Part shown: positions 47,852-55,100 of the stretch, in pieces | Numbering within the stretch: position 1 is the first letter of the stretch | Layout: each line of letters starts with the position of its first letter | Origin: Agaricicola taiwanensis | Lineage (GTDB): Bacteria; Pseudomonadota; Alphaproteobacteria; Rhizobiales; Methylopilaceae | Reading direction: 5' to 3' | Assembly: GCF_014635245.1 (NCBI RefSeq) | Contig: NZ_BMCP01000001.1 | Location: forward strand, 186,001-250,000 | Length of the DNA: 64,000 nucleotides | Position numbers and translations under genes: made by a program | Notes under the pieces: generated by a model | Database searches by the model: none | Told to the model about the DNA's origin: nothing | What the model saw: the letters and a program-made list of their open reading frames with translations, nothing else

Positions 47852-49024
47852 ATGAGCACCCCAAAGCCGAAGAAGTCCGTCGCACTTTCGGGCGTGGTTG
47901 CAGGAAACACAGCGCTCTGCACCGTCGGACGCGCCGGCAACGATCTGCACTACCGGGGCTATGACATCCTCGACGTAGCGGAAACCTGCGAATTTGAGGA
48001 AATTGCCCATCTCCTGGTCCATGGAACCTTGCCGACAGCGCCGGAACTTGAGGCCTACAAGGCCAAGCTGAGGGCACTGCGTGGTTTGCCAGCGGCGGTA
48101 AAGCATGTGCTGGAAGCCATTCCGGCCGCGGCTCATCCCATGGACGTGATGCGCTCAGGCGTCTCCGCGCTCGGCTGCGTGCTGCCGGAAGCACCCGACC
48201 AGAACCATCCCGGCGCGCGCGACATCGCCGACCGCCTGATGGCCTCGCTCGGCTCGATGCTGCTCTACTGGTATCACTTTGCCCACAACGGCCGCCGTAT
48301 CGAGGTGGAAACGGATGACGATTCCATCGGCGGCCATTTCCTGCACCTGCTGCATGGCCGGTCTCCCACCGCCTCGCATGTGCACGCGATGCATGTCTCC
48401 CTGATCCTCTATGCGGAGCACGAATTCAACGCGTCCACCTTCACCGCGCGCTCCATTGCCGGAACAGGATCGGATATCTATTCCGCGGTCACGGGCGCCA
48501 TCGGCGCCCTGCGCGGCCCCAAACACGGTGGCGCCAACGAAGTCGCTTTCGAGATTCAGAAGCGCTACGCCGATCCCGATGAGGCGGAAGCCGACATCCG
48601 TCGCCGCGTCGAGGCCAAGGAGGTCATCATCGGCTTTGGCCATCCGGTCTATACGATCTCCGATCCCCGGAACAAGGTGATCAAAGAGGTGGCGCGCGCG
48701 CTCTCGGCCGAGGCGGGATCGATGAAGATGTTCGATATCGCCGACCGCATCGAGGGCACCATGAGCGATGCCAAGAAGATGTTCGCTAACCTCGATTGGT
48801 TCAGCGCCGTCTCCTATCATATGCTGGGCGTGCCCACGGCCATGTTCACGCCGCTCTTCGTCATCTCTCGCACGTCGGGATGGGCGGCACACATCATCGA
48901 GCAGCGCCAGGATAACAAGATCATCCGCCCCTCCGCCAATTACACCGGTCCTGAGAACCTCACCTTCGTGCCGCTCAAGAAACGCGGCAAGCCGGCTCCT
49001 CGCTCAAAAAAGAGCAAGGAATAA
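47852..49024 (+). CDS. prpC: 2-methylcitrate synthase / citrate synthase
   Basis: A 390-residue citrate-synthase-fold enzyme that condenses propionyl-CoA (and acetyl-CoA) with oxaloacetate. [16 protein letters not shown] near the start, [13 protein letters not shown], the His in [24 protein letters not shown] and the [12 protein letters not shown]-terminus identify the PrpC group. AGGAGG lies 6 nt before ATG 47852. prpB and prpD are absent here, so either they are elsewhere or the enzyme serves another purpose. Confidence 0.92.
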
Positions 49025-49040
49025 TGCTTAGCCGGCAAAT

Positions 49041-49412
49041 CTAGCCAGGGAAAGCGATGGTGGAGAGCAGCGCCAGTTCAGCCTGCCGCGAATCCAACCG
49101 CGTATGCTGGGCGACAACAGGCACATCGCTTTCAACCAGCGCGGCATAATTGGTGTCGCGCGGGATCGGTTCGGGATCCTTAAGATCGTTGAACCGCATA
49201 TGGCTGGTACGCCGGGCCGGCACCGTCAGGCGATAGGGGCCCACCGGATCACGATCCTCATAGAAGATCGTGATGGTGATCTGCGCGTCCTGGTCGGAGG
49301 CGTTCAGGAAACACATGGTCTCGTGGCTGGTGAGTGCCGGCGCAGGGCCGGTGCTCTCGCTGGGAATGTAACCTTCTGCAATGGCCCACCGGGTCTTTCC
49401 GATCGCTGTCAT
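49041..49412 (-). CDS. Anabaena sensory rhodopsin transducer (ASRT) family protein
   Basis: A 123-residue protein matching the ASRT family along its length: KTRWAIAEGYIPSESTGPAP, TITIFYEDRDPVGPYRLTVP, RRTSHMRFNDLKDPEPIP and QHTRLDSRQAELALLSTIA. ASRT is the small tetrameric beta-sandwich partner of Anabaena sensory rhodopsin. No rhodopsin gene is visible in this window. Its ATG overlaps the stop of the LLM oxidoreductase gene (ATGA). Other ASRT relatives without rhodopsins have been proposed to bind small carbohydrates, which fits the GH13 gene in this operon. The longer frame on this strand is rejected because it crosses the LLM gene. Confidence 0.9.
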   Translation of the reverse strand: MTAIGKTRWAIAEGYIPSESTGPAPALTSHETMCFLNASDQDAQITITIFYEDRDPVGPYRLTVPARRTSHMRFNDLKDPEPIPRDTNYAALVESDVPVVAQHTRLDSRQAELALLSTIAFPG

Positions 49413-50410
49413 GTGGCTGCTCCTGTCCCTGAGGGAGGCACGTCGCGGTGAACGCGCGGCAGCACCTCGCGGCCAAAGAACTCGATGAAGGCCTGCTGGT
49501 TGCGGCCGACGTTGTGCAGCACGATCTCGCTGAAGCCCATGGAAATGTCCTCCGTGATCCAGGCGGCGTGCCGCGCGGGATCGGACGAGATCCGCACGTG
49601 CTCGTCCATGTCCTCCGGCCGGACATCGCGCGTCGCCTCCTCGAAATGGTCCGGCGTCGGCAGGTTGCCGGCAAGGTGTGCCGGTATGGCATTGCTGCGC
49701 CATTGATCGAAGGCGTTGGCCCGGGCTTCCCCGTCGTCCTCGGCCCATGACACATGCACCTGAAGATAAAGAGGTTTGCCGCTGCCCCCGCCCCGGCGGA
49801 ACGCCTCCACAATCCCGGCGAGCTTCTCCCGTGGCTGATTGATGGTGATGAGGCCGTCGGCCCAGCCGCCGCACCATTCCGCCGTCTCCGGCGAAAGCGC
49901 CGCTCCCAGGATCAGCGGCGGCGTTTCCGGCAGGGTGTAAAGTTTGGCGTCCAACGTGGGAATGGGATCCGGCGAGCTTACGGTTTCACCGTTCCAGAGA
50001 GCCCTGACGATATCGACCGCAGCCCTGAGCCGCCGGTGGCGCTCCGGCTTGTCCGGCCAGCCTTCACCGACCACGCGTTCGTTGAGGGCTTCGCCGCTGC
50101 CGAACGCAACCCAGGGAAAACGGCCCGGGAACATCTGTGCCAGGGTGGCGGTGGCCTGCGCGATAACGACGGGATGAAAACGCCACCCTCCGGGAATGGT
50201 GATCATTCCGATCGGAAAATGCGTCGCCTGCAGCGCGGCGCCCATCCATGACAACGCAAATCCGGATTGCCCCTGACGGTCGCTCCACGGCGCCGCGTGA
50301 TCCGAGGACATGGCCCCGCTGAAACCTGCCCGCTCCGCCGCCTGCACGAAGCGGACGAGGTCGCGAGGTGTGAACTGCTCGTGGGAGGCATGATAGGAGA
50401 TCCCCACCAT
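49409..50410 (-). CDS. LLM-class flavin-dependent oxidoreductase, TIGR03885-like
   Basis: A 333-residue luciferase-like TIM-barrel protein starting ISYHASHEQFTPRDLVRFVQ, with a cofactor region VAFGSGEALNERVVGEGWP and GGWADGLIT. It matches the TIGR03885 group, thought to use FMN rather than F420. The start lies one base after the upstream GH13 stop. Its position between a GH13 enzyme and an ASRT protein is striking; substrate unknown. Confidence 0.85.
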   Translation of the reverse strand: MVGISYHASHEQFTPRDLVRFVQAAERAGFSGAMSSDHAAPWSDRQGQSGFALSWMGAALQATHFPIGMITIPGGWRFHPVVIAQATATLAQMFPGRFPWVAFGSGEALNERVVGEGWPDKPERHRRLRAAVDIVRALWNGETVSSPDPIPTLDAKLYTLPETPPLILGAALSPETAEWCGGWADGLITINQPREKLAGIVEAFRRGGGSGKPLYLQVHVSWAEDDGEARANAFDQWRSNAIPAHLAGNLPTPDHFEEATRDVRPEDMDEHVRISSDPARHAAWITEDISMGFSEIVLHNVGRNQQAFIEFFGREVLPRVHRDVPPSGTGAAT

Positions 50411-50411
50411 C

Positions 50412-52037
50412 TCAACCCACCTTTTCCAGCTGGCCCCAGATGTACTGGTAGGGCCGCAACTGCAGCTTCAGGCGGCTCCCATCTATGGGATAAATCTCGC
50501 CATTGACGAGATCCTTCACCTGCCCGGCCCGGCCGAGCGCCGTGCCGATGTCGACCCTCGCGGACCTGCCGGAAAAATTATGGAGGAACAGGAGCCCGCC
50601 ACCCTGGTCGGAGCACCGATGGCCCAGCACCGCCGAATGTCCGGTTTCCATGGCCTCAAGCTGCGCCCTATGGATCAACTCATGCTGCCGGCGCAGCGCC
50701 ACCAGTGCCCGGACCTTGTTCAACAAGGATGCCGGATCATTCTCCTGCGCATCCACATTGACGCTCTTGTAGCCGAACCGCCCGTTCTGCACCGGCGCCT
50801 GGATCATCTTCTTTACCGGGGCGTCGGAGAAGCCGCCGTTGCGACCGCCGGACCACTGCATCGGCACTCGCACCGCATCACGCCCCCGCACTTCGAGATC
50901 TTCCCCAAGGCCAATCTCATCGCCGTACATCATCACCGCCGTGCCCGGCAGTGAAAGGATAAGGCTGTGCACCATCTCCATGCGCCGCTGGTCGCCGTCG
51001 AGCATGGGCGCAATGCGGCGGCGGATGCCGCGACCGTAGAGCCGCATCGATTCATCCGGGGCAAAACGTGCGTAGGTCTCCTGGCGCTCCTCCCCGGTGA
51101 GGCGCGAAAGATCAAGCTCATCGAGCGAGCGCAGAAAGTTCCCCCAGCCGCAGTCCTGCGGCGTCTGCGGCAACTCCGTCAGCGCCTGGGCAACGGGCGC
51201 TGCATCCTCACGGGCGAGCGCCAGAAAAAAGAAGGCGTTCAAGTAGAAGTTCAGCAACAGGCCCAGGCCCTGGCCATCGCCGAAGAACTCGCTGAGCTTT
51301 TCCGGCTCAACATTTGCTTCGCCCATCATGAGGCCGTCCGGCAGGCGCTCCCGCAGCACGGCGTTCATATCGTGCAGAACGCCGTGCGGATCGCGTGGCT
51401 CCGAGCGGCGCAGACCATTCTCACCGATCATGATGGGCGCGGCATCGATGCGGAAGCCGGCAACGCCAAAAGCCATCCAATACTGCATGATCTTGGCGAC
51501 CTCTTCGCGTACCTCCTCATTGGCGATGTTGAGTTCGGGCTGGAAGTGATAGAAGCGGTGGAAATAGTAGGCGTTAGCCACCTCGTCATAGGTCCAGACA
51601 TTGTCTTCCTCTCCGGGGAAGATCGTCGTGTTGTTCGTGTCGATGGCGGGTGGGCTGTCGCTCCAGATGTAGTAGTCGCGAAAGCGACTCCTGGCGTCGC
51701 GGCGCGCGGCCTCAAACCAGGGGTGCTCGGTGGACGTGTGGTTCACCACAAGATCGACGATGACACGGATGCCATGCTCGCCCGCACGGCGGATGAACTC
51801 GATGAAATCACCCATCGTGCCGGTTTGCGGATTCAGCCGGTAATAATCGCGGATGTCATATCCGTTGTCGCGATTGGGCGTATCGAAGAAGGGCAGCAGC
51901 CAGATGCAGGTGATGCCGAGCTTTCGCAAGTAGGGGAGCTTCGATGTCAGGCCGATGAAGTCACCGATGCCATCGCCGTTGCCGTCCGCGAATTTCTCCA
52001 CATCGATGCCGTAGATGATCGCATCCTGATACCACAT
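50412..52037 (-). CDS. GH13 enzyme related to trehalose synthase
   Basis: A 541-residue GH13 protein. Regions I (DLVVNHTS), II (GFRIDAAP, nucleophile Asp198) and III (MMGEANVEP, acid/base Glu240) are intact. In region IV the usual Asn-His-Asp is replaced by SLD (304-306) in FLRSLDELDLSRL, so a conserved substrate-binding His is missing. Overall it resembles TreS, which interconverts maltose and trehalose. ATG 52037 has GGGAG 10 nt upstream; ATG 52067 is an alternative. It leads the operon with the LLM and ASRT genes under an EcfG-type promoter. Confidence 0.85.
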   Translation of the reverse strand: MWYQDAIIYGIDVEKFADGNGDGIGDFIGLTSKLPYLRKLGITCIWLLPFFDTPNRDNGYDIRDYYRLNPQTGTMGDFIEFIRRAGEHGIRVIVDLVVNHTSTEHPWFEAARRDARSRFRDYYIWSDSPPAIDTNNTTIFPGEEDNVWTYDEVANAYYFHRFYHFQPELNIANEEVREEVAKIMQYWMAFGVAGFRIDAAPIMIGENGLRRSEPRDPHGVLHDMNAVLRERLPDGLMMGEANVEPEKLSEFFGDGQGLGLLLNFYLNAFFFLALAREDAAPVAQALTELPQTPQDCGWGNFLRSLDELDLSRLTGEERQETYARFAPDESMRLYGRGIRRRIAPMLDGDQRRMEMVHSLILSLPGTAVMMYGDEIGLGEDLEVRGRDAVRVPMQWSGGRNGGFSDAPVKKMIQAPVQNGRFGYKSVNVDAQENDPASLLNKVRALVALRRQHELIHRAQLEAMETGHSAVLGHRCSDQGGGLLFLHNFSGRSARVDIGTALGRAGQVKDLVNGEIYPIDGSRLKLQLRPYQYIWGQLEKVG

Positions 52038-52092
52038 GCGTTGGCGGCTCCCTCGAAGATCAACCATGCCGCGAACGGGCATGTAGAGCGGC

Positions 52093-52118
52093 AACGCCGC
52101 CCTTGTTAAGGAGGTTCC
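52093..52118 (-). promoter_or_regulatory. EcfG-type (general stress) promoter of the GH13-LLM-ASRT operon
   Basis: On the minus strand, GGAAC (52118-52114), a 17-bp spacer and CGTT (52096-52093), an exact match to the alphaproteobacterial EcfG consensus. Transcription would start near 52086. Confidence 0.7.
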
Positions 52119-52150
52119 GACAACATCAGCACGGATCGGAGGCTGCGCTT

Positions 52151-52176
52151 TGAACGGCCCGGTCGATACGTGCGTT
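52151..52176 (+). promoter_or_regulatory. EcfG-type promoter of the alpha-glucosidase gene
   Basis: TGAAC (52151-52155), a 17-bp spacer and CGTT (52173-52176): one mismatch to consensus. It lies 35 bp upstream of the alpha-glucosidase start and back to back with the promoter on the other strand. Confidence 0.58.
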
Positions 52177-52211
52177 ATGCCTCCGACTGAGCGGCATCAG
52201 GCGGAGGCGGC

Positions 52212-53810
52212 ATGGCGACGGAGTGGTGGAAATCGGGGGTGATCTATCAGATTTATCCACGCTCGTTTCAGGACAGCGACGGCGATGGCATCGGCGACCT
52301 CAAGGGCATCCGTGACCGCCTGGCCTATGTGGCCAGTCTGGGCGTCGACGCGATCTGGATATCACCGATCTTCGTGTCGCCCATGGCCGATTTCGGCTAC
52401 GACATCGCCGACTACTGCGCCATTGATCCACTGTTCGGAACCCTCGACGATTTCGACGCCCTGATGGCTGAGGCCAAACGGTTGGAACTGAGGGTCATTC
52501 TCGACCTCGTTCCCAACCACACCTCCGACCAGCACCCCTGGTTCAAGGAGAGCCGTTCATCGCGCAACAGTGCCAAGCGCGATTGGTACATCTGGCGCGA
52601 CGCCAAGGCAGATGGCAGCGTCCCCAACAACTGGATCAGCAATTTCGGCGGCAGCGCCTGGAGCTGGGACGAGGCCACCGGCCAGTATTATTATCATGCC
52701 TTCCTGAAGGAGCAGCCCGACCTCAATTGGCGCAACCCCGAGGTGCGGGAAGCAATCTCTGACGTAATGCGATTTTGGATGGCCCGCGGTGCCGACGGGT
52801 TCCGCGTCGATGTCATCTGGCACCTGATGAAGGACCCCGAGTTTCGCGACAACCCACCTAATCCCGCCTGGCAACCAAGCCAGCCGGAGATCAACCGCCT
52901 GCTTCAGGTCCATTCAGCCGACCATCCCGATATCGAAGGACTGATCACCGAGTTACGGCGGGTGATCGACGAATATCCGGATCGCGTGCTGATCGGCGAG
53001 ATCTATCTGCCGATGGATCGGTTGATGGCCTATTACGGCCGGGGTCTTTCAGGAACCCACCTCCCCTTCAACTTCCTTCTGCTGCAGGCGCCGTGGTCAG
53101 CGCCCAAGATCGCCCAGTTGATCGCGGAATATGAGGCCGCCTTGCCGCCTGGTGGCTGGCCTAACTGGGTTCTTGGCAACCACGATCAGCCCCGTCTCGC
53201 CAGCCGCACCGGCCTCGAACAGACGCGCGTGGCCGCCATGCTGCTCCTGACCCTGCGCGGCACGCCCACGCTTTACTACGGTGACGAGATCGGCATGCAG
53301 CAGGTGCCTGTGCCCCCTGAGGCTGTGCGCGACACCTGGGAGTTGCGAGAGCCCGGGCTCGGCTTCAACCGCGACCCGCAGCGCACGCCCATGCAGTGGA
53401 ACGGATCGTCCAACAGCGGTTTCACCACGGCGACACCATGGCTGCCGATGGCGGCCAATGCGGCGGAATGCAACGTGGCCACCATGGCACAAGACCCGCA
53501 CTCGCTTCTGGCGCTCTACCGATCGCTGATCGCGCTGCGCCACCGAATGCGGGCCCTGCAACTGGGCAGCTATCATCCGTTGTTCCATACGGAACATGTG
53601 CTGGCCTATGAACGCCGGCTCGACGATACCCGTCTCGTGGTGCTTCTGAACCTCGGCCAGACGGACGAGGAGATCACCCTGCCCGAATATGTGGCGGCGG
53701 GACGCGTCCTGCTCGCGACCGAAGGGGAACTTGCCGATATTCCTCTGTCGTCATCTCTGACACTTCCCGGCAACGCAGGGCTTATCGTCAGGCTTCCCCT
53801 AGTTGGTTAA
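52212..53810 (+). CDS. Alpha-glucosidase (GH13)
   Basis: A 532-residue GH13 enzyme starting WWKSGVIYQIYPRSFQDSDG, the typical oligo-glucosidase start. All four regions are intact: DLVPNHTS, GFRVDVIW, IGEIYLP and LGNHDQPR. A C-terminal beta domain ends LIVRLPLV. No signal peptide, so it is cytoplasmic. It hydrolyses alpha-glucosidic bonds in maltose-type or sucrose-type sugars. It diverges from the TreS-like operon and may share stress control. Confidence 0.92.
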   Translation: MATEWWKSGVIYQIYPRSFQDSDGDGIGDLKGIRDRLAYVASLGVDAIWISPIFVSPMADFGYDIADYCAIDPLFGTLDDFDALMAEAKRLELRVILDLVPNHTSDQHPWFKESRSSRNSAKRDWYIWRDAKADGSVPNNWISNFGGSAWSWDEATGQYYYHAFLKEQPDLNWRNPEVREAISDVMRFWMARGADGFRVDVIWHLMKDPEFRDNPPNPAWQPSQPEINRLLQVHSADHPDIEGLITELRRVIDEYPDRVLIGEIYLPMDRLMAYYGRGLSGTHLPFNFLLLQAPWSAPKIAQLIAEYEAALPPGGWPNWVLGNHDQPRLASRTGLEQTRVAAMLLLTLRGTPTLYYGDEIGMQQVPVPPEAVRDTWELREPGLGFNRDPQRTPMQWNGSSNSGFTTATPWLPMAANAAECNVATMAQDPHSLLALYRSLIALRHRMRALQLGSYHPLFHTEHVLAYERRLDDTRLVVLLNLGQTDEEITLPEYVAAGRVLLATEGELADIPLSSSLTLPGNAGLIVRLPLVG

Positions 53811-53867
53811 GCACATCGCGCTTGCATCGGCTCGTCGAAGTCAGCTGGTGAGCGCCTGCTCGCGGCC

Positions 53868-55100
53868 TCACGGCCGCTCGCCACGGAGCAGCGCCGGCGC
53901 ATCCCCCTGAACACCTGCCGCTGCGCGGATCACGCTGTTCTTCAGACGGCCGAGCCTGTCGAAGGCGCCGAGGCCGACATCCCGCACCGTGCGGAGGCGG
54001 TTGTTCCGGAAAAGATGCGCCAGCGCGTCCGTTGCGGCCACCATGGCAAGACTGTCGAAGCGCCGCCACCGGGCGTAGCGCTCAAGCGGCTCCGGCCCGC
54101 CGATGTCGCCACCAAGCCGGGCGGTGCCGACCACCACCTCGACCAGCGCGGCGACATCCTTGAGCGCAAGATTAAGGCCCTGCCCCGCCAACGGGTGTAT
54201 GGCGTGGGCGGCATCCCCGATCAGTGCAACCCGCGGGGCCACGAAGGATCGGGCGACCTGCAGCCCCAGCGGCCGCACCGCCCGCGGTCCGGCGAGGCTC
54301 AGCCCGTCGAAGGCATGGCCAGCGGCCTGCTCCAGGGCATCGCGGAAGGTTATGTCATCCTGCCCGGCGAGACGCTCCGCCTCCATCCGAGGCAGTGTCC
54401 AGACCACAGCCGCGTGCCGTTCCGGAAGTGGAAGAAGCGCGAGAGGTCCCCCGGGGAGGAAGTGCTGGATCGCGGTTCCCTCGTGATCCGCCGCCAGTTG
54501 AATGCGCGTCACGATCGCTGCCTGGTCATAGCGCCATCCATGCGTCCTGATACGGGCGGCATCCCGCACCCGCGAGCGCTGGCCATCGGCGGCCACCAGC
54601 AGAGGAGCACGCAACAGGCGACCATCGGACAATGTCACCTCCAGACCCATCGGCACGGAAGAATAGCCGGCGAATCCCGCCGGCAGCAGTTCCACACCCT
54701 GTTCCTGGGCAGCCTTCAGCAAGATGTCGCGCAGCACATCGTTCGGAACGATGTGCGCGAAGGCCTCGCCATCAGGCAGCGGACCGCCGAAATCAAGCCA
54801 GACCGGCCTCAGAACGTCTTCCAGCCGGGAATCCGTGATGGACATCCGCATGACCGGCGCGGCCTGCGGTGACAGCTTATGCCAAAGCCCGAGCGTTTCG
54901 AGGAGGCGCCGGGGCCCGGCGGCAACGGCCGAGGAGTTGGGATCCTTGCGGGGCGCGCGCCCGAAGGCGGGGTCGAGCACGGCGATGCGGCCACCGGCGC
55001 CGAAACTTTGGGCCAGGGCCACGGCGAGCGCGAGGCCCGCGAAGCCGCCGCCGGCGATGATGACGTCCCTTGCCTCTTCCTGCCGTTCCCGCTCCTGCAT
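53868..55100 (-). CDS. UbiH/COQ6-family FAD-dependent monooxygenase
   Basis: A 410-residue flavoprotein hydroxylase with the GxGxxG motif IIAGGGFAGLALAVALAQ, the middle DG motif LLVAADGQRSRVRD, and the third FAD block LIGDAAHAIHPLAGQGLNLALKDVAALVE. The family hydroxylates the ubiquinone ring. UbiH, UbiI and UbiF cannot be separated by eye. ATG 55100 follows GAGGG. It diverges from tesB. Confidence 0.9.
   Translation of the reverse strand: MQERERQEEARDVIIAGGGFAGLALAVALAQSFGAGGRIAVLDPAFGRAPRKDPNSSAVAAGPRRLLETLGLWHKLSPQAAPVMRMSITDSRLEDVLRPVWLDFGGPLPDGEAFAHIVPNDVLRDILLKAAQEQGVELLPAGFAGYSSVPMGLEVTLSDGRLLRAPLLVAADGQRSRVRDAARIRTHGWRYDQAAIVTRIQLAADHEGTAIQHFLPGGPLALLPLPERHAAVVWTLPRMEAERLAGQDDITFRDALEQAAGHAFDGLSLAGPRAVRPLGLQVARSFVAPRVALIGDAAHAIHPLAGQGLNLALKDVAALVEVVVGTARLGGDIGGPEPLERYARWRRFDSLAMVAATDALAHLFRNNRLRTVRDVGLGAFDRLGRLKNSVIRAAAGVQGDAPALLRGERP

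Follow-up and report, generated by a model that had tools for sequence, protein, structure and literature searches.

The window, i.e., the whole 64,000-nt stretch of DNA that was analysed, contains a group of three genes on the minus strand and a divergently oriented gene on the plus strand, and the DNA between them carries two promoter motifs. The features are as follows:

49041 to 49412, minus strand: small protein of the ASRT family (Anabaena sensory rhodopsin transducer family; PF07100, 1.2e-55; PDB 2ii7)
49409 to 50410, minus strand: LLM-class flavin oxidoreductase, TIGR03885 (489.7 bits, cut-off 398.7; PDB 9hav and 3b4y)
50412 to 52037, minus strand: GH13 protein of the trehalose-synthase type (Pfam Alpha-amylase; the best-scoring solved structures are TreS)
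52118 to 52093, minus strand: predicted EcfG-type promoter of the GH13-LLM-ASRT unit, GGAACCTCCTTAACAAGGGCGGCGTT, exact match
52151 to 52176, plus strand: probable promoter of EcfG type for the alpha-glucosidase gene, variant -35 box, TGAACGGCCCGGTCGATACGTGCGTT, exact match
52212 to 53810, plus strand: GH13 alpha-glucosidase, divergent from the GH13-LLM-ASRT unit (Pfam Alpha-amylase, 7.6e-139; best-scoring solved structures the alpha-glucosidases 7voh and 3wy1)

The LLM protein is related to the F420-dependent glucose-6-phosphate dehydrogenase. ASRT, for which the Pfam and PDB comparisons were run on positions 49041-49409 and therefore one residue short of the ATG at 49412, is a predicted sugar binder according to the available text of PMC2739507. 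A sugar-remodelling role under stress appears to be the likeliest one for GH13, LLM and ASRT. The start of the GH13 gene was placed at the ATG at 52037, where the alignments with relatives approximately begin and which is also selected by the codon-usage gene caller. The longest frame would begin at a TTG at 52094, inside the promoter, and the ATG was preferred. The LLM gene starts 1 nt behind GH13, and ASRT (ATG 49412) overlaps the end of LLM by 4 nt. Due to this tight spacing, the minus promoter should carry LLM and ASRT as well.

A first-pass annotation had described GGAAC-N17-CGTT on the minus strand and TGAAC-N17-CGTT on the plus strand, facing away from each other and at proper distances to both starts, and this arrangement is found letter by letter. 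On the minus strand the -35 box GGAAC (52118-52114) is followed by a 17-nt spacer and the -10 box CGTT (52096-52093), whose end lies 55 nt before the likely GH13 start in intergenic DNA. On the plus strand TGAAC (52151-52155), again with a 17-nt spacer, precedes CGTT (52173-52176), which ends 35 nt before the alpha-glucosidase start at 52212. The two -35 boxes are separated by 32 nt. If used, the promoters are expected to start transcription at about 52086 and 52183, respectively. Compared to the EcfG consensus (GGAAC, a spacer of 16-17 nt, CGTT, located shortly before a start), the minus site agrees in every element. The plus site departs from it in the first base of the -35 box, and agrees in the N17 spacer, the CGTT and the short distance to the start. 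It also preserves the AAC triplet, which in the EcfG -35 box of S. granuli is almost invariant in the available text of PMC7083833. Spacer lengths given for EcfG promoters, as far as the sources are available, are N16 for R. etli and S. granuli (PMC7083833 for the latter) and 15-17 for C. crescentus (PMC5869019), and for S. melonis the motif reads GGAAC-N17-20-GTT (PMC6599016). A scan of positions 48900-54000 with a single sigma-70 consensus, for which 1.3 matches are expected by chance, returned no match.

Within the 64-kb window, three GGAAC-N16-18-CGTT sites were observed vs. 1.48 expected (18 of 100 shuffles reach three), and two sites of the TGAAC class vs. 0.79 (15 of 100 shuffles reach two). 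These counts are not clearly in excess over the shuffles, and therefore the positions of all sites throughout the genome were examined; the case for the two sites is built on these genome-wide positions and on the recurrence in relatives. The genome total of GGAAC-N16-17-CGTT is 78 vs. 62 for the reversed control, which is a weak excess, and for the N17 spacer alone 28 vs. 25. One match of each set was left unclassified, for GGAAC at a stretch edge and for the control on contig C16. Among the 77 classified GGAAC sites, 52 are intergenic and 42 are both intergenic and located at most 150 nt before a start on the same strand, the starts being those of a simple codon-usage gene caller. For the 61 control sites the corresponding numbers are 7 and 3 (42/77 vs. 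3/61, Fisher p 7.5e-11). It is the position, and not the raw genome count, that separates the motif from its reversed control, and at the control rate about 4 of the 42 upstream sites are attributable to chance. Both spacers are in use in this genome, since 27 of 49 N16 sites and 15 of 28 N17 sites lie upstream.

TGAAC-N16-17-CGTT occurs 59 times in the genome, with 23 sites intergenic and 14 upstream, and its own reversed control 11 times, with 3 intergenic and 1 upstream; the upstream share is thus 14/59 vs. 3/61 for the GGAAC control, or vs. 4/72 with its own control pooled (p ~0.003). In a subset of the genome stretches other -35 variants were found upstream in 5 of 19 (CGAAC), 5 of 13 (GAAAC) and 0 of 11 cases (AGAAC). 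GCAAC, a frequent EcfG -35 box in S. granuli in the available text of PMC7083833, was not concentrated upstream of genes in this subset (1/16). Divergent pairs in which each site is of the GGAAC or the TGAAC class, with a gap of at most 120 nt, are present three times in the genome, vs. 0.15-0.38 expected by a rough Poisson estimate with the intergenic share of the DNA taken as 12%. One of them, GGAAC with TGAAC and a gap of 23 nt, lies about 3 kb from phyR (G000:C4:100176-100248, i.e., 1677-1749 of locus L190), next to a 71-codon ORF and a PRC-barrel gene. A fourth, looser divergent pair with a gap of 86 consists of a CGAAC and a GCAAC box, which lie outside this pair survey.

The genome encodes PhyR (NF006623, 361.3 bits with a cut-off of 240; PhyR_sigma2 domain), NepR (PF18557, 58.1 bits with a cut-off of 25.7) and an EcfG-like ECF sigma factor, a designation based on its ECF domains and on its location next to nepR, behind which it lies. 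These are the three components of the general stress switch. A single locus combines them with an HWE/HisKA_2 kinase. Here, the phyR-nepR intergenic region contains a divergent GGAAC pair, 30 nt apart, a layout like the one in the window with its 32 nt.

A Pfam scan of 20 of the 42 genes behind upstream GGAAC sites revealed a catalase, DUF892 (twice), DUF4142, a CBM48-GH13 enzyme, a K+ transporter, a cation efflux protein, a Crp-type regulator and Host_attach, with one gene giving no match. The available table of top EcfG-regulated genes of S. melonis lists a catalase, GlgX, a Crp-type regulator and an attachment protein (PMC6599016), and the set found here resembles published EcfG regulons. 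The strict site before the CBM48-GH13 gene (L218, G000:C6:4941-4965) lies 57 nt before its start, and this gene is probably a second alpha-glucan gene of the genome under stress control.

A search with the LLM protein, using one genome per species, gave 411 relatives, of which the best 80 were taken as loci; many of these 80 have a GH13 homologue close to LLM. In addition, GH13 stretches of 16 relatives, picked among the best matches of 37 genomes, were included. Among the best 80 of 411 are 28 alphaproteobacterial LLM loci, and 11 of these have the strict motif between -400 and +60 relative to the unit. None of the 52 others has it; these are largely from cyanobacteria and Bacteroidota, so that base composition confounds this comparison. 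Therefore, the argument is carried by a control within the same loci: in the alphaproteobacteria, the strict motif was found for 19 of 42 GH13 units, compared with 8 of the 309 other units (p 5e-14). The window itself is excluded from this count, which includes two copies each of G045 and G051 and, where loci overlap, duplicates of some background genes; p values of this kind are too small because related genomes are not independent. Two further units (L179 and L180) have the motif immediately in front of GH13, with a closely spaced gene of the same direction preceding it.

The strict motif is absent from 23 of the 42 GH13 units. No strict site precedes GH13 in Sinorhizobium, in several Rhizobium loci or in one Phyllobacterium locus. 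In the Sinorhizobium loci L012, L026 and L027 relaxed sites precede an ASRT gene further upstream, and L011 is without them. The background of the relaxed motif is high (47 of 309 other units), too high to prove single sites. In the family of the window, the alpha-glucosidase gene often lies behind GH13, with a strict site 27-36 nt before GH13 (L174-L176, L179, L181-L184). In two genomes of one other family, ASRT, LLM and alpha-glucosidase form a row that is led by a strict site, located 34-36 nt in front of ASRT (L304, L311). In the Rhizobium loci L019 and L020, an alpha-glucosidase-like gene is divergent from GH13 with GGAAC sites both ways. Since three of these four sites have a relaxed -10 box and the enzyme is 38-39% identical to that of the window, the divergent layout may have a separate origin there.

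Positional homology of the site was tried with L032, the nearest relative with a GH13-LLM pair (GH13 61% identical), and rejected: the upstream DNA hardly aligns and the motif lies 33 and not 55 nt before the start. The mean spacer identity of 0.32 over 20 sites, all preselected for exact boxes, is not a test of conservation.

For the plus site, the best 30 alpha-glucosidase loci were taken, including the one of the window. None of the 23 units that begin with the alpha-glucosidase has the strict motif. Of 15 alpha-glucosidase units, however, 7 are preceded within 96 nt by TGAAC or CGAAC together with CGTT, which holds for 3 of the 343 other first genes, one copy each of the doubled G045 and G051 having been removed. 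These seven units come from three genera of three families, none of which is that of the window. A coordinate filter had placed four loci with a leading alpha-glucosidase in the background, of which L309, L314 and L326 are without and L327 is with a [TC]GAAC site; with these restored, the counts are 8 of 19 vs. 2 of 339, and four families besides that of the window are represented. The first -35 base is T or C and not G before the alpha-glucosidase genes of L305-L307, L313, L321, L324, L325 and L327, as well as at 52151 of the window, in five families including its own. The plus site may accordingly be described as a putative weaker EcfG promoter that appears to be kept in its weak state.

These results suggest that the 84-bp stretch with both sites controls two divergent units as part of the general stress response of alphaproteobacteria. 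In the established model, PhyR is phosphorylated upon stress and then takes NepR off EcfG. The RNA polymerase containing EcfG would transcribe leftward from the consensus GGAAC-N17-CGTT, giving one transcript of GH13, LLM and ASRT, and rightward from the weaker TGAAC-N17-CGTT into the alpha-glucosidase gene. The products would most likely rework internal alpha-glucosides, e.g., trehalose and maltose, under stress, with ASRT as a putative sugar sensor. The motifs, their genome-wide and cross-species placement and the switch genes are observed; from these, we infer promoter use, the shared transcript, the stress signal and the roles of the enzymes. As a whole, we regard this explanation, with stress-induced GH13-LLM-ASRT and alpha-glucosidase genes, as highly probable. 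For the GH13-LLM-ASRT unit, membership in the general stress response is very probable, and both sugar-enzyme units would very probably be switched on together under stress. The first-pass annotation had placed LLM and ASRT in this response. The PhyR, NepR and EcfG-like genes, the placement (42/77 vs. 3/61), the recurrence (19/42 vs. 8/309) and the tight gene spacing lend support to this assignment, which presupposes control by EcfG.

It could be argued that only the minus promoter depends on EcfG, TGAAC being a chance match and the alpha-glucosidase being controlled otherwise, for example by a sugar-responsive repressor. The departure of TGAAC from the consensus speaks for this, as do its far lower upstream concentration (14/59) compared to GGAAC (42/77) and the 8 of 15 alpha-glucosidase units of relatives without a [TC]GAAC site. 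Nevertheless, the other 7 of 15 units, from three other families, do have such a site plus CGTT within 96 nt (background: 3 of the 343 other first genes), an alpha-glucosidase gene in second place of a GH13 unit shares the strict promoter of that unit (L174-L176, L181-L184), and a like GGAAC/TGAAC divergent pair is located 3 kb from phyR (L190). We therefore consider control of the minus promoter alone to be rather unlikely.

Both promoters could also be real and be read by another ECF sigma factor, or by an EcfG paralogue that is relaxed toward the first -35 base, in place of the EcfG encoded next to nepR. At least two EcfG-like genes are present in half of the completed alphaproteobacterial genomes (PMC3892343, in its available text), and those alpha-glucosidase orthologues that have a site retain T or C as first -35 base; the phyR-nepR-ecfG locus itself, however, bears the identical consensus, and a different sigma factor appears improbable. 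Chance occurrence of both motifs in intergenic DNA of high GC content, with ordinary promoters serving the genes, would fit the window counts, which stay within those of the shuffles. This idea is opposed by the genome-wide position test and the recurrence across species, and to some degree by the lack of a sigma-70 type match nearby in what is a weak scan, so that it is very unlikely. Divergent control by EcfG through both promoters is thus retained as the preferred reading.

A further feature concerns the GH13 protein itself, which had been called TreS-like. The similarity on sequence level holds, since the best-scoring structures are TreS, and doubt falls on the function. With the TreS model TIGR02456 the protein scores 545.6 bits and stays under the cut-off of 678.35. 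The catalytic Asp, Glu and Asp are present (RIDA, GEAN and LDEL, aligned with 5x7u), and in conserved region IV the His is replaced by Leu (FLRSLDEL), giving SLD vs. NHD in 5x7u. The His of region IV (NHD), located before the third catalytic residue, matters in GH13 enzymes.

The other TreS-type protein of the genome retains NHD. In the set compared (loci L010-L032, L173-L187 and the window), Leu is present in the window and in all 18 fetched alphaproteobacterial units with the order GH13-LLM (17 NLD, 1 TLD), and in 2 of 4 units with the order LLM-GH13; the S. meliloti gene of L026 shows the change. All 15 fetched GH13 genes of relatives without LLM in the unit have the His, and so have nine homologues read from loci outside the alphaproteobacteria. 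The His is also retained in Ancylobacter (L046), where LLM is in the neighboring unit. In this locus, from Ancylobacter radicis, a unit of LLM and alpha-glucosidase is convergent with the GH13 gene, and each has its own strict EcfG site.

Because the LLM-paired GH13 has lost the region-IV His, TreS is perhaps the wrong name, and the name treS is questioned for the stress-linked gene of rhizobia. As a tentative proposal, which we hold to be possible and still doubtful, the stress-controlled, LLM-paired "TreS" of Rhizobiaceae and allied bacteria would not be a trehalose synthase. Instead, this GH13 would be part, with LLM and ASRT, of a stress-induced module for sugar processing, to which the annotated treS of S. 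meliloti would belong. Chemically, GH13 might perhaps release or transfer a glucosyl unit, followed by a flavin-dependent oxidation.

With the TIGR03885 flavin oxidoreductase and ASRT, two poorly understood genes are placed in what is probably the general stress regulon in several families of alphaproteobacteria, and their function can be sought under this condition. Furthermore, the non-consensus T/CGAAC promoter class may tune the output of a divergent pair. Among the matches listed in the literature search, which covered texts outside supplementary tables, no description of a GH13-LLM-ASRT unit as EcfG-controlled was present, and those on flavin_revert/TIGR03885 dealt with other subjects only.

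In S. meliloti, the region of pSymB at ~107.8-112.5 kb contains a row of ASRT, oxidase, ASRT, GH13 and LLM. A work by Flechard from 2010 reportedly names, in its title, trehalose synthesis under RpoE2 in Sinorhizobium meliloti. Such control is also stated in the available part of PMC2918589. The treS gene of this species is smb20099 in the available text of PMC4960864, and by position and annotation the pSymB row very probably contains it. For Sinorhizobium, a predicted operon that joins an ASRT gene to one of the amylase family has been described, and a carbohydrate-binding role was proposed for this ASRT (de Souza et al., 2009, PMC2739507, in its available text). The window shares this association, and differs in gene order, as ASRT is last; stress control is not mentioned in the available text on the Sinorhizobium operon. 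In S. melonis, the available table of top EcfG-regulated genes contains a "Glycosidases" gene with GGAAC-N16-CGTT 26 nt before its start (PMC6599016).

Closest in terms of control is B. diazoefficiens, whose treS (blr6767) is a member of the EcfG regulon, while bll0902, a putative treS paralogue, was not found in it, as stated in the available part of PMC8092242. Here, a gene of the trehalose-synthase type is likewise probably placed under a stress sigma factor; the GH13 gene of the window forms a unit with LLM and ASRT, and its product has no His in region IV. With the EcfG general stress regulon (sigma-EcfG, RpoE2 or SigT) the case has in common GGAAC-N16-17-CGTT near starts, PhyR, NepR and EcfG-like genes with their own motif, and several typical members; it differs in TGAAC for GGAAC in the plus promoter and in being known from sequence alone. 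Since EcfG control of treS has been published, the arrangement counts as a new instance of a known control system and not as a new mechanism, with two modest extras, namely the T/CGAAC promoter that recurs before alpha-glucosidase genes and the changed region IV of GH13.
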